Positions 14,024 to 22,716 of a stretch of 37,309 nt of DNA are shown one piece after another. Positions within the stretch are counted from its first letter, which is position 1. Every line of letters begins with the position of its first letter. Origin of the DNA: an uncultured Eubacterium sp. GTDB taxonomy: Bacteria > Bacillota > Clostridia > Lachnospirales > Lachnospiraceae. The notes under the pieces were generated by a model, which saw only the letters and a program-made list of their open reading frames with translations, did not search any database and was not told the DNA's origin. The position numbers were made by a program, and so were the translations under genes. The stretch is from positions 1 to 37,309 of the forward strand of contig CAJOPA010000030.1 of NCBI GenBank assembly GCA_905236235.1, in the 5' to 3' direction.

Positions 14024-14479
14024 TCACGAGATCACCCCCTCTCCCAACAGCATGCACAGGTACGCAATCAACACAAACGGCACGAACACCATCTCGTAAT
14101 TTCTCTCCTTTTTCTTGACGATCAGCAAATAAATTCCGCAAACGGATGCTATTATCACAGACAAAAAAAGCAAAAGAAAATTTCGCGCACCGCCGAGATA
14201 GACCCCTGTTGCCGCAAATAACAATGCGTCTCCCATGCCGATTTTCTCCCGGGTCAAAACCGCAAGGAGCGCGAGAGCGCCTCCGACGCACATACCGCAA
14301 AGCATCTGCACGCCCGTGATCTCCTGTACAAATATATGCAGGATGACGCCCGCCACGGCGAACAATACCGGGGTCCGCACCAGCAATTTTTTTCTTCGCA
14401 GATCCTGCAGACTGCAAAGAGACAATAATCCTATCATCATATACGTTTGCATTTGCATCCTTTCCGTCATTGCGCGCAA
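14024..14479 (-). CDS. Prepilin peptidase, A24 family (TadV/CpaA-like); true start may be an internal Met
   Basis: SLQDLRRKKLLVRT and GMGDALLFAATG, the two catalytic-Asp motifs, in a polytopic membrane protein. Confidence 0.8.
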   Translation of the reverse strand: MRAMTERMQMQTYMMIGLLSLCSLQDLRRKKLLVRTPVLFAVAGVILHIFVQEITGVQMLCGMCVGGALALLAVLTREKIGMGDALLFAATGVYLGGARNFLLLFLSVIIASVCGIYLLIVKKKERNYEMVFVPFVLIAYLCMLLGEGVIS

Positions 14480-18522: not shown

Positions 18523-19332
18523 TTAAACACAGATATTTAAGATCCTCTCCCCCAGCCACCACGCAACCAGGTACCCCATAAGCAGCACCGCCATCACCGC
18601 TGCCCCCGCTGCCTCCGCATACAACGGCTCCATATACTCCGGAGATGCCAGTCGCAAATACAGAAGGATTGCCGGCGGCGTGATCCGCATGATCCACAAC
18701 TCCAACTTTTTTTGCGCGACCATGGTTGTGATCTCCCGTTCGACATCCATCTTTTCCTGCATCTGCTCCACCGTCTGCCGAATGATCTCAACAAAATTTC
18801 CGCCGCTTCTTTTGGCAAATCCCACAATCTCCGTAAATACCGAAAAATCTTCGTTTTCCAATTCCTTCGCCGCCTCCTCCATTAACTGCGTCATGGGAAT
18901 ATTCTGCCGCATCCCCTCGATCATCCTCCGAAAGGTCTTGCCTGTCACACTTTTGCTTCCGTATAAGCCTTCTAACCCCTTATAGGCTTCCACCCACGCA
19001 TTTTCCAAAGCGTAGCCTACCTGCACGGACGCCGCCAACCCCTGCAGGATCTCCATGACTTCCTTCTGCACCTGATCCCTGCGGCGCCTCCTTCTTGCCT
19101 TTTTGCACTCTTTTACGAAAAGAGGAAGTAACAACCACACCGCCGCTTCCAGCAAGAGCGGGCGGAAAAACAGCCGGCCGAGCAACGCACACCCAATAGC
19201 ACCCGGGAGGATGTCCCCCATATCCTCCAAGCGTACGCCGCTCCTATGCCGGGAGGTGCCATCCCGAAAAAGCCAGCTTCGACGTGTCCTTGATGTCCCC
19301 CTTTTTTTGCCACGTCCCGTATATTCTTCCAT
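18523..19332 (-). CDS. TadB-like type II/IV secretion F-family protein; start uncertain
   Basis: LQGLAASVQVGYALENAWVEAYKGLEGLYG...FGFAKRSGGNFVEIIRQTVEQM-type T2SF domain and C-terminal TM segments. Confidence 0.82.
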   Translation of the reverse strand: MEEYTGRGKKRGTSRTRRSWLFRDGTSRHRSGVRLEDMGDILPGAIGCALLGRLFFRPLLLEAAVWLLLPLFVKECKKARRRRRRDQVQKEVMEILQGLAASVQVGYALENAWVEAYKGLEGLYGSKSVTGKTFRRMIEGMRQNIPMTQLMEEAAKELENEDFSVFTEIVGFAKRSGGNFVEIIRQTVEQMQEKMDVEREITTMVAQKKLELWIMRITPPAILLYLRLASPEYMEPLYAEAAGAAVMAVLLMGYLVAWWLGERILNICV

Positions 19333-20494
19333 TGACTTCCCCTTCCTCGCAAAATGAAAACAACTCTCTTGTTAGGATCTCTCCGTTTTCCATACCTGCA
19401 ATTTCCTCTACGGAGAGAACTTTTCTTGTGCGGTCCCGCAAACGTCCCAGATGCACCATCACATCGATCCCCGACGCGATCTGCCTGCGTACGGCTTCCA
19501 TGGGCAGGTCCGCTGCCCCGGTCAACACCATGGTCTCCAACCTCGCCAGCATGTCCCGGCAGGAATTGGCATGTCCCGTAGAAAGCGAACCGTCATGTCC
19601 TGTATTCATCGCCTGTAACATATCAAGCGCCTCCGGCCCCCTTACCTCCCCGACCACTATACGGTCCGGCCGCATCCGGAGGGCCGTGCGGATCAGGTCT
19701 CGAATAGAGATCTCCCGGTTGCCTTCGGCATTGGCCTCCCTCGTCTCCAGGCGCACCAGGTTTTCCACTTCCACCAGTTGTAGCTCCGCGGAATCTTCGA
19801 TCGTGATCACCCTTTCCCCCGGCGGGATCTCTCTTGCCAGAACGTTTAAAAACGTGGTCTTGCCGGAGCCCGTTCCGCCGCTGATAAAGATGTTATAACC
19901 GCTCCTTACCAGGCACCCCAGATACTCCGCCACCTCCGGCGACAACGTCCCCCGGGCGATCAGGTCCTTCATGGTAAAAGGATGCTTTGGAAAACGGCGT
20001 ATGGTCATCACCGGACCGTTTAAAGCCGCCGGTGCAGTGACGATATTGACACGGTCACCGCTTGCAAGCCTCGTGTCCACAATCGGACGGCTTTCATTGA
20101 CCTGGCGGTTGGTCCCGGCCACGATCCTTTGAATGATCTGCATCAGTTCATCCTCCGAGAAAAATCTTTTTTCCCAACGCGAGATCACACCGTTTCTTTC
20201 CACAAACACATTCCTGTGTCCATTGACCATGATCTCCGATACGTCTTCGTCATCCAGCAGCTCCTGCAGGATACCCAGGCGTCGGATACGATTAAAAATG
20301 TCTCCGGCAATCTGCTCTTTTTCCCGCAGGGACAGCCCCTTACTGCCACCCCTCGCCAGCACGCATTCATGAATATAATCCCGCAGCTGTTCGTCCGACA
20401 GATCTCCCGCCATGCGGATGTTTTCCATCAGGTTTTCCCGAAAATCATCCTGCAGGATCTCCCCTGCCTCTATACTTTCCTTATCCCGCCACAT
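19244..20494 (-). CDS. cpaF: CpaF/TadA secretion ATPase
   Basis: Walker A ISGGTGSGKTTFLN, Walker B/Asp box RMRPDRIVVGEVRGPEALDMLQAMNTGHDGSLSTGHANS. Confidence 0.95.
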   Translation of the reverse strand: MWRDKESIEAGEILQDDFRENLMENIRMAGDLSDEQLRDYIHECVLARGGSKGLSLREKEQIAGDIFNRIRRLGILQELLDDEDVSEIMVNGHRNVFVERNGVISRWEKRFFSEDELMQIIQRIVAGTNRQVNESRPIVDTRLASGDRVNIVTAPAALNGPVMTIRRFPKHPFTMKDLIARGTLSPEVAEYLGCLVRSGYNIFISGGTGSGKTTFLNVLAREIPPGERVITIEDSAELQLVEVENLVRLETREANAEGNREISIRDLIRTALRMRPDRIVVGEVRGPEALDMLQAMNTGHDGSLSTGHANSCRDMLARLETMVLTGAADLPMEAVRRQIASGIDVMVHLGRLRDRTRKVLSVEEIAGMENGEILTRELFSFCEEGEVNGRIYGTWQKKGDIKDTSKLAFSGWHLPA

Positions 20495-21476
20495 GCATAT
20501 ACTCCCTTACCACGTCTCCCCATTCGCCGTAGATCCACTGTTCCCCGAGGTTTTCTCCGCTATAGGGAACGCGCATGGGTGCGATCGTTACTTTCTCCGG
20601 TCGTACGCTGTCATGACATCGTGCGGTAAACGCCTCACAAAAATCTTCCAGGCGCGCGCCGTCAAACGGTCTGTCTTCACCGATCAGAAAAATCTCCGAA
20701 GCCTGCTTCATGTAAGACATCATCCCCGTGAGCACAGCGTCCATATCAAAGACGACGCAATCATACCGCACCTCTGTCGCAAGCTTCTCCAGGAAGGCCT
20801 CCCACTCCTGCCCGGATACATCAGCACGATCCAAAGGATGGCGCATGGGCGGGATCACATCCATACGATCCTGCATCACCGCTACCTGTTCCAGGATCTC
20901 TCCCATGGATTTTTTTGACTGCTTCATGAGGAAGATCACGTCCGCAAGGTCGCTCTCGTAGGTCCTTCCGAACATCTTCCCAAAAGCACCGTTTTCCGAA
21001 AAGTTGATATACAAAACCTTTTCCCGGCGGGCACGAAGCGCTGCGTAGGTGTAGGCAAACGGCGTGGCAAAACGGCTCGCCGTCGGGCTGTATACCCATA
21101 CGTTCTCCGGTTCTCCTTCCCGGATCGCGGCGGACTCCCTTCCCTGCGGAAAACCTGCTGCCCCCTGCAGATGTCGCACCAGCTCATCTGCAGGCCGGTA
21201 TTTGCCGAGACAGATCATCCCTTCGCCTTCCTCCGACGTCGCTGACGCATCCTCTGCCTTTGCCGGCTCTTCCTCAAAAACGCAGCATAGATACCGTCCT
21301 CCGGCACCTTCTCCCGCGCCGTCGCGGTTTCTCACATACTCCCGAAAGGCCGCTTCCGTCGTAAAGGCTGCCACTTCAAAGTCTTTTCCGTGATTCGCCA
21401 AAAGATATCCCACAAAAGCTTCCACATAAGCTTCCTCGGGATCATAAAAAGCCAAATGTATCTTTGGCACGATCAT
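20481..21476 (-). CDS. CpaE/TadZ-like protein with degenerate P-loop
   Basis: N-terminal receiver-like fold, C-terminal MinD-like segment (VLYINFSENGAFGKMF...YDCVVFDMDAVL), upstream of and overlapping cpaF. Confidence 0.7.
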   Translation of the reverse strand: MIVPKIHLAFYDPEEAYVEAFVGYLLANHGKDFEVAAFTTEAAFREYVRNRDGAGEGAGGRYLCCVFEEEPAKAEDASATSEEGEGMICLGKYRPADELVRHLQGAAGFPQGRESAAIREGEPENVWVYSPTASRFATPFAYTYAALRARREKVLYINFSENGAFGKMFGRTYESDLADVIFLMKQSKKSMGEILEQVAVMQDRMDVIPPMRHPLDRADVSGQEWEAFLEKLATEVRYDCVVFDMDAVLTGMMSYMKQASEIFLIGEDRPFDGARLEDFCEAFTARCHDSVRPEKVTIAPMRVPYSGENLGEQWIYGEWGDVVREYMHVAG

Positions 21477-21482
21477 CCCCCC

Positions 21483-21968
21483 TTAATGCACCAAATTCCA
21501 CACCAAAAACGACACAAACAAATACACTGCAAATGGTAAAACATGAGACTCCTCCACGGGATAGGGAAGCACGCGACGCCTCCTTGCCGCTTCGGAAATG
21601 TAGGAAAAAAATACAGATATTCCGGAAATCAACAGGCCTCTGCGGACCAGTTGAATCCCACCCCAGATAGCCGCTATACATGCGGCGAGAAATACGATCT
21701 TAAGCCCTTCCGCCATTCCTACGAATCCCCCCAATACGGAAATCAGCTTAACATCCGCGGCTCCTAAAACACGAGCCCAATAGAAAAGAAAAAACAGAGT
21801 GATCATTACCCCCACCCGGAGCAGGAACGTCCCAATCCCCGCCATTCCCCGTTCCCCAACGAGAAACAGTACTCCGAGTATCCATCCGCAACCTATGATC
21901 TTATTGCGGACGCGAAAAGTTTTGTAATCAGAGATTGCCGCGACCAGGAAAAAAACACTCGCAACAAT
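21483..21968 (-). CDS. Prepilin peptidase, A24 family (CpaA/TadV-like); N-terminus extended from ORF-track MAGIG start; start codon unresolved
   Basis: In-frame upstream translation IVASVFFLVAAISDYKTFRVRNKIIGCGWILGVLFLVGERG|MAGIG supplies the first Asp motif; GAADVKLISVLGG is the second. Confidence 0.75.
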   Translation of the reverse strand: MVASVFFLVAAISDYKTFRVRNKIIGCGWILGVLFLVGERGMAGIGTFLLRVGVMITLFFLFYWARVLGAADVKLISVLGGFVGMAEGLKIVFLAACIAAIWGGIQLVRRGLLISGISVFFSYISEAARRRRVLPYPVEESHVLPFAVYLFVSFLVWNLVH

Positions 21969-21982
21969 CTCTTTCCCTTCCC

Positions 21983-22013
21983 CGATGTCACATCACCTCA
22001 CTTTGTGACATCG
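21983..22013. repeat. 9-bp perfect inverted repeat upstream of the tad operon
   Basis: CGATGTCAC-N13-GTGACATCG. Confidence 0.85.
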
Positions 22014-22043
22014 AATTTACCACAAGCTCTTTCTTTTTGTCCA
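22014..22043 (-). promoter_or_regulatory. Putative tad operon promoter with extended -10
   Basis: Minus strand TGGACA-N18-TAAATT, with TGG directly before the -10. Confidence 0.45.
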
Positions 22044-22105
22044 TACCTTTTTTTCGATTTGGCAATTCCTACGGAAAATCCTTTTTACACCCTCTTTGCA
22101 ACATA

Positions 22106-22132
22106 AAAAACCCCGAAAATATCGGGGTTTTT
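22106..22132. terminator. Bidirectional rho-independent terminator between fliC-fliS and the tad operon
   Basis: AAAAACCCCGA-AAATA-TCGGGGTTTTT. Confidence 0.88.
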
Positions 22133-22245
22133 CAATGTCAAACATTCGTTTCTTTTAAAATAAAATCTACTATATGAGCGGCTCTTTACGATTCGGAACT
22201 TTTCACAAATGGTTTTCGTTCAAATCCCTTACGCTTTGAAGGAAC

Positions 22246-22716
22246 TTATGCAAAGAATCCTCTCTTTTCCAAATTCCCTCCGGTCGCGGTCTCGCCCATG
22301 CGATTGCGACCGTAGGTCAGTCCTTCGTAGATCTGCTGCGTATGCGTCATGAGCGGCGCACTGTCATCCTTTTCTGCGAGCTTTTCGTACGCAGAGGAAA
22401 CATTGTGCAGGATCCGGCGCAATGCCGGGATCTCCTTCGTGTCTTTTTTTACGATGCACATGGAAAGACTGCGCAGCATAAATTCATACAGATTGTCCAA
22501 AAGATGCGCGATCTCATATTGAAAATCCAAGGTGTTTCGAAAATACCGCAGAATGGTTTCCGCATGGTGGACGGCGTCTTTCATTTCCTCATAATCCTTC
22601 GCCGTCTCCACTTCCCCGAGGTAGCAGTCGCACACATCATACAGCACGACCAGCAGCTCGGTGCGATTGCTCTGCGAGATCCGCATGGTAAAATTTTTCT
22701 TTTGCTCGTTCGTCAT
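22246..22716 (-). CDS. fliS: Flagellar export chaperone FliS
   Basis: MRISQSNRTELLVVLYDVCDCYLGEVETAKDYEEMKDAVHHAETILRYFRNTLDF; directly downstream of flagellin. Confidence 0.88.
   Translation of the reverse strand: MTNEQKKNFTMRISQSNRTELLVVLYDVCDCYLGEVETAKDYEEMKDAVHHAETILRYFRNTLDFQYEIAHLLDNLYEFMLRSLSMCIVKKDTKEIPALRRILHNVSSAYEKLAEKDDSAPLMTHTQQIYEGLTYGRNRMGETATGGNLEKRGFFA

Follow-up and report, generated by a model that had tools for sequence, protein, structure and literature searches.

A tad prepilin peptidase gene probably begins at a near-cognate AUC codon, in keeping with an apparent family-wide habit of AUU, AUC and AUA starts

Where does translation of the first gene of a tad operon begin when its reading frame offers no standard start codon ahead of the active site? 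The question is raised by a prepilin peptidase gene on the minus strand of the window, our term for the whole 37,309-nucleotide stretch of DNA that was analysed, which belongs to a draft genome (134 contigs, 87% complete). Direct reading bore out the original prediction that the frame of this gene, which runs uninterrupted from 21992 to its stop codon (21483-21485) and is bounded upstream by a TGA (21995-21993), contains no ATG, GTG or TTG before the catalytic Asp; the first such codon, ATG 21845, lies downstream of that residue. The extension upstream of ATG 21845, CDIGEGKEIVASVFFLVAAISDYKTFRVRNKII, was also found to carry the first catalytic-Asp motif of A24 peptidases as predicted, the Asp being present in all 159 loci analysed. 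The second motif, GAADVK (G-A-A-D-x-K), shares this frame and is a Gly to Ala variant of GxGD that is seen in 8 other loci. A match to Pfam Peptidase_A24 (PF01478) covers P0001 residues 10-111 (E 1.1e-12, 48.8 bits against a curated cut-off of 26.5), and no NCBIfam family was found for these proteins. Homologues align across the extension, and the matches in G205 (the best) and G081 start at residue 3, the ATC codon. Together with the shared frame of the two motifs, this sets the extension apart from a chance open frame.

The second gene of the operon is tadZ/cpaE-like (20481..21476, minus strand) and begins at ATG 21476 or at GTG 21470-21468, which is better spaced from a G-run; a tadA/cpaF-like ATPase gene (T2SSE; 19244..20494, minus strand; E 2e-53) also follows. 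The opposite end of the tad region holds a second Peptidase_A24 gene (14024-14446, minus strand). A promoter scan returned a single weak match, and an Rfam search of 21800-22300 returned no match near gathering scores.

An 8-nt match to the anti-Shine-Dalgarno complement, GAGGTGAT (21992..21999, minus strand), was confirmed just upstream of GTG 21991-21989, and the frame read from that GTG (21893..21991, minus strand) closes at a TAG after 32 codons, again as predicted. In the peptidase frame, where no ATG, GTG or TTG is usable, an ATC codon (21984..21986, minus strand; GTGAGGTGATGTGAC-ATC-GGGGAAGGG) sits at Shine-Dalgarno (SD) spacing, the aligned distance being 9. Counted from this ATC, the catalytic Asp is residue 20, the commonest position among genes with ATT, ATC or ATA (ATH) starts and the second commonest among canonical genes, a placement that follows the family pattern. 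Residue 2 is Gly in most non-canonical genes of the window's length class, and the N-terminus predicted for the window, MGEGK, resembles the MGEVK, MGEIK, MGDIK and MGDLK of relatives. Non-standard initiation was among the candidates put forward by the original prediction, and that part stands, with comparative evidence pointing to ATC 21984-21986; the ATT at 21966-21968 that it had proposed is not the codon favoured. ATG 21993-21991, which had been missed, is followed directly by TGA, and a +1 shift at this ATG-TGA (21993-21988) was rejected as unneeded, the ATG being too near the SD. Judged by sequence pattern and statistics, translation most likely initiates at the ATC, and we re-annotate the gene as 21483..21986 (minus strand; 167 amino acids plus stop). 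We hold with considerable confidence that this is an intact tad prepilin peptidase gene, with a near-cognate ATC start (21986-21984) placed by a strong SD, and that it exemplifies a habit seen across the family.

The extent of this habit was evaluated in 397 genomes of the family, 217 of which gave a match; from loci shared with named genomes we infer that the family is Lachnospiraceae. A profile HMM located the catalytic Asp in each A24 locus, and with this residue as anchor the start region was read. An SD-linked canonical start was absent in 50 of the 159 loci. Among the 43 loci with a clear SD and no SD-linked canonical start, an ATH codon 5-10 nt past the SD core matched the phase of the A24 frame in 30 loci, against 4 and 1 for the two remaining frames, whereas the phase in the canonical genes was unbiased (19/13/17 of 106; Fisher p 3e-14). 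Canonical codons were wholly lacking in the stretch from 31 to 9 residues ahead of the Asp in 17 of the 159 loci, the window included, one of these (L029) being a longer, different A24 type. Across 246 distinct loci, comprising the family loci, named genomes and order-level matches, starts were canonical in 167 (80 ATG, 53 TTG, 34 GTG), unclear in 18 and ATH at normal SD spacing in 61 (36 ATT, 14 ATC, 11 ATA), the last being a mechanical call in which some of the 61 are ambiguous. The catalytic G-x-x-D-x-K was kept in 61/61 of the ATH genes. As a control, the tadZ-like next gene was read by the same procedure, giving canonical starts in 110 of 125 loci and about 3 credible ATH starts. Together these data indicate that roughly one in four Lachnospiraceae genomes most likely starts its tad prepilin-peptidase gene with ATT, ATC or ATA, and that TTG is often used in the others; the alignment of start sites across related genomes that had been called for recovered the near-cognate arrangement in about a quarter of them. 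In the window's six genus relatives the start was TTG in five, ATG in one and ATH in none. Start class changed 41 times on the tree, against a shuffled mean of 51, and this frequent switching indicates that no particular start codon is strictly maintained.

Examples include GCGAGGTGATGA-ATT-GGGGAA (L072), GTGAGGTGATGA-ATT-GGGGCT (L097), AAAGAGGTGAAGCCT-ATC in a single-contig genome (L065) and AAGGAGGCATAGAGC-ATA (L048). This last locus belongs to Mobilisporobacter senegalensis DSM 26537 (L160 = L048), and ATT starts were found in Roseburia inulinivorans DSM 16841 (L229), Eubacterium sp. 14-2 (L183) and Eubacterium plexicaudatum ASF492 (L213). The complete genome of Hungatella hathewayi DSM 13479 (L227 = L144) has an ATC start with a weaker SD. 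Since ATH starts occur in named isolates and complete genomes, neither draft assemblies nor a single lineage account for the pattern. Some loci show variations on it. GTT stands where relatives have ATT in four genes (L031, L033, L171, L185), and in an ATT-GG group (L072, L097, L079, L229 and others) the sequence [AG]TTGG makes an overlapping +1 TTG frame that usually stops within a few codons. L044 and L119 have a well-spaced ATG after the SD outside the A24 frame, in a frame that stops early, and neither has a near-cognate codon in the A24 frame at the SD. The tadZ-like gene has its own usage in the 125 loci, with TTG commonest (60, compared with 36 ATG) and ATT, ATA or ATC in three (L048, L057, L058).

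The run of seven T residues at 21949..21955 (minus strand), confirmed by direct reading as the place where the GTG and A24 frames meet, allows other explanations to be proposed. An indel introduced by sequencing or assembly, or a genuine frameshift of the strain, might have separated the A24 frame from a true start at GTG 21991-21989; that codon has a strong SD at an aligned spacing of 4, inside the range of canonical relatives, the genome is a draft, and a homopolymer sits at the frame junction. We consider this unlikely, given that, for the peptide preceding T7, the ATC frame (MGEGK, score 1.05) agrees more closely with the family profile than does the GTG frame (MTSGKGKRLL, score -2.57), values reached by 3.5% and 12% of the out-of-frame background, respectively. 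The lower score runs against the earlier suggestion that the slipped GTG-frame peptide supplies a normal CpaA-like N-terminus. In addition, the active site is intact, and the same arrangement is found in about a quarter of relatives, nearly all of them without T7. The proposed comparison of tract length across related genomes showed that T7 is not conserved, runs of seven T being present in just 3 of the 60 ATH loci other than the window's; the genomes searched included no relative of the same species and no close one.

The same count bears on programmed or transcriptional slippage at T7, or phase variation, which would link the two frames, GTG and A24, and which we regard as very improbable. 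Although the tract lies at the meeting point of these frames and a strong hairpin holds it in its loop, the slip site is not conserved, the zero-frame codons GTG TTT TTT TCC form a poor tandem slippery site, and the peptide ahead of the tract is in better agreement with the ATC frame. With the T tract not conserved in like relatives, the original view that it separates the frame from a true GTG start, whether by slippage, phase variation or assembly indel, finds no support. We give slightly less credence still to translation from MAGIG at ATG 21845, the first standard in-frame start, which would yield a shortened protein of 120 aa that lacks the first catalytic Asp, or to a pseudogene. The frame upstream of that codon encodes both the first membrane-spanning segment and the catalytic Asp, the latter invariant in a 40-row alignment as well as being found in 159/159 loci; a strong SD stands at the ATC, and the operon is intact. 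Initiation at the ATC is the reading that we prefer.

Folding of the window's start region gave a z of -4.8, second in rank among 228 loci, and revealed two hairpins absent from the original prediction. Hairpin 1 (21981..22015, minus strand) is formed by UUCGAUGUCACA, a loop, AAGUGAGGUGA, holding the SD, and UGUGACAUCGGG, which contains the GUG and AUC; folded alone it reaches -14.7 kcal/mol (z -4.0), and its inverted repeat is unique in the genome. Hairpin 2 (21930..21972, minus strand; z -5.0) covers the first codons of the gene and has 14 bp, including two G-U pairs, with T7 in its loop. A start hairpin was not found as a family trait, the family mean z being -0.25, and we treat the predicted hairpins as species-specific and the family as unstructured at this position. 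Hairpin 1 might alternatively represent an operator palindrome in the DNA; the one exact copy of the inverted repeat in the genome means that there is no repeated exact operator.

A further peculiarity was observed in relatives. Six genomes of the family, from five genera, have TGA as the codon that immediately follows the catalytic Asp (D-TGA-[RK]-Y-x-K) in an otherwise open A24 frame (L008, L042, L060, L061, L062, L063). A tRNA-Sec above cut-off and selA were adjacent on one contig in 4 of the 6 TGA genomes and in 0 of 8 controls (Fisher p 0.015); the two TGA genomes without the pair are 59% and 97% complete. Folding of the TGA genes for a bSECIS element gave no consistent or convincing structure. 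These data suggest selenocysteine as a candidate residue adjoining the catalytic Asp in TGA-bearing prepilin peptidases.

The infC gene provides evidence on the use of such codons by these bacteria. Its start is ATT at SD distance in 19/19 genomes in which infC was found, the window's genome included (L276-L294), with one further genome giving no match; AUU initiation therefore probably operates in the window's organism. The infC start reads ATT-AGC or close variants, and most of these genes have an ATG in frame a few codons downstream. Non-canonical starts are repressed by IF3, whose own gene, infC, initiates at ATT or ATC (PMC5472188). In an in-vitro survey IF3 tolerated Watson-Crick pairs only at codon positions 1-2 and was laxer at the third (PMC10158994), a laxness that fits AUN starts.

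These data allow us to propose a mechanism. First-gene position, a strong SD and an IF3-disfavoured codon would together keep the output of this catalytic membrane protease low and possibly tuned by IF3, with the downstream pilus genes using their own ribosome sites. Very weak, possibly IF3-sensitive initiation would probably keep the peptidase scarce, the low yield and the IF3 sensitivity both being predictions. In the window's species, we infer from the modelled hairpin, with its buried start and its SD in the loop, that initiation may be lowered or gated further. A broader and more doubtful proposal, which we offer tentatively, is that the tad prepilin peptidase is the second broadly distributed start-codon-controlled gene after infC in Lachnospiraceae, where IF3-sensitive AUU/AUC/AUA initiation would set pilus maturation and species-specific hairpins would act as an added gate.

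To our knowledge, starts other than ATG, GTG and TTG are considered near-absent. A survey of start-codon switches recorded a change to AUU in 1 of 61,358 ancestral AUG starts (PMC5622118), and our literature search found no paper joining prepilin peptidase with AUU starts. The ATH-start genes, about one quarter of those in a large bacterial family, would make a ready collection for work on IF3 discrimination, and annotation programs that accept ATG, GTG and TTG alone will miss or truncate the A24 enzyme.

Among known systems, the likeness to infC, with its AUU/AUC start and IF3 autoregulation, lies in a strong SD followed by a codon matching AUG in its first two bases only, and in a start conserved across genera, the ATT infC being present in these same genomes. 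The A24 peptidase is, however, not a translation factor, so there is no evident feedback loop of the infC kind, and its start varies among ATT, ATC, ATA, TTG, GTG and ATG between genera. In Streptomyces, the GTC start of sigR is repressed by IF3 (PMC5472188); there too a gene is held low by a non-canonical start, as we propose here, and is mis-annotated by gene finders, whereas the gene, phylum and codon differ and IF3 control is shown for sigR but predicted for A24. Finally, the window's gene resembles Tad/CpaA-TadV type A24 prepilin peptidases in its PF01478 domain, its two catalytic Asp residues and its tad operon context, and differs from them in a predicted start outside ATG, GTG and TTG.
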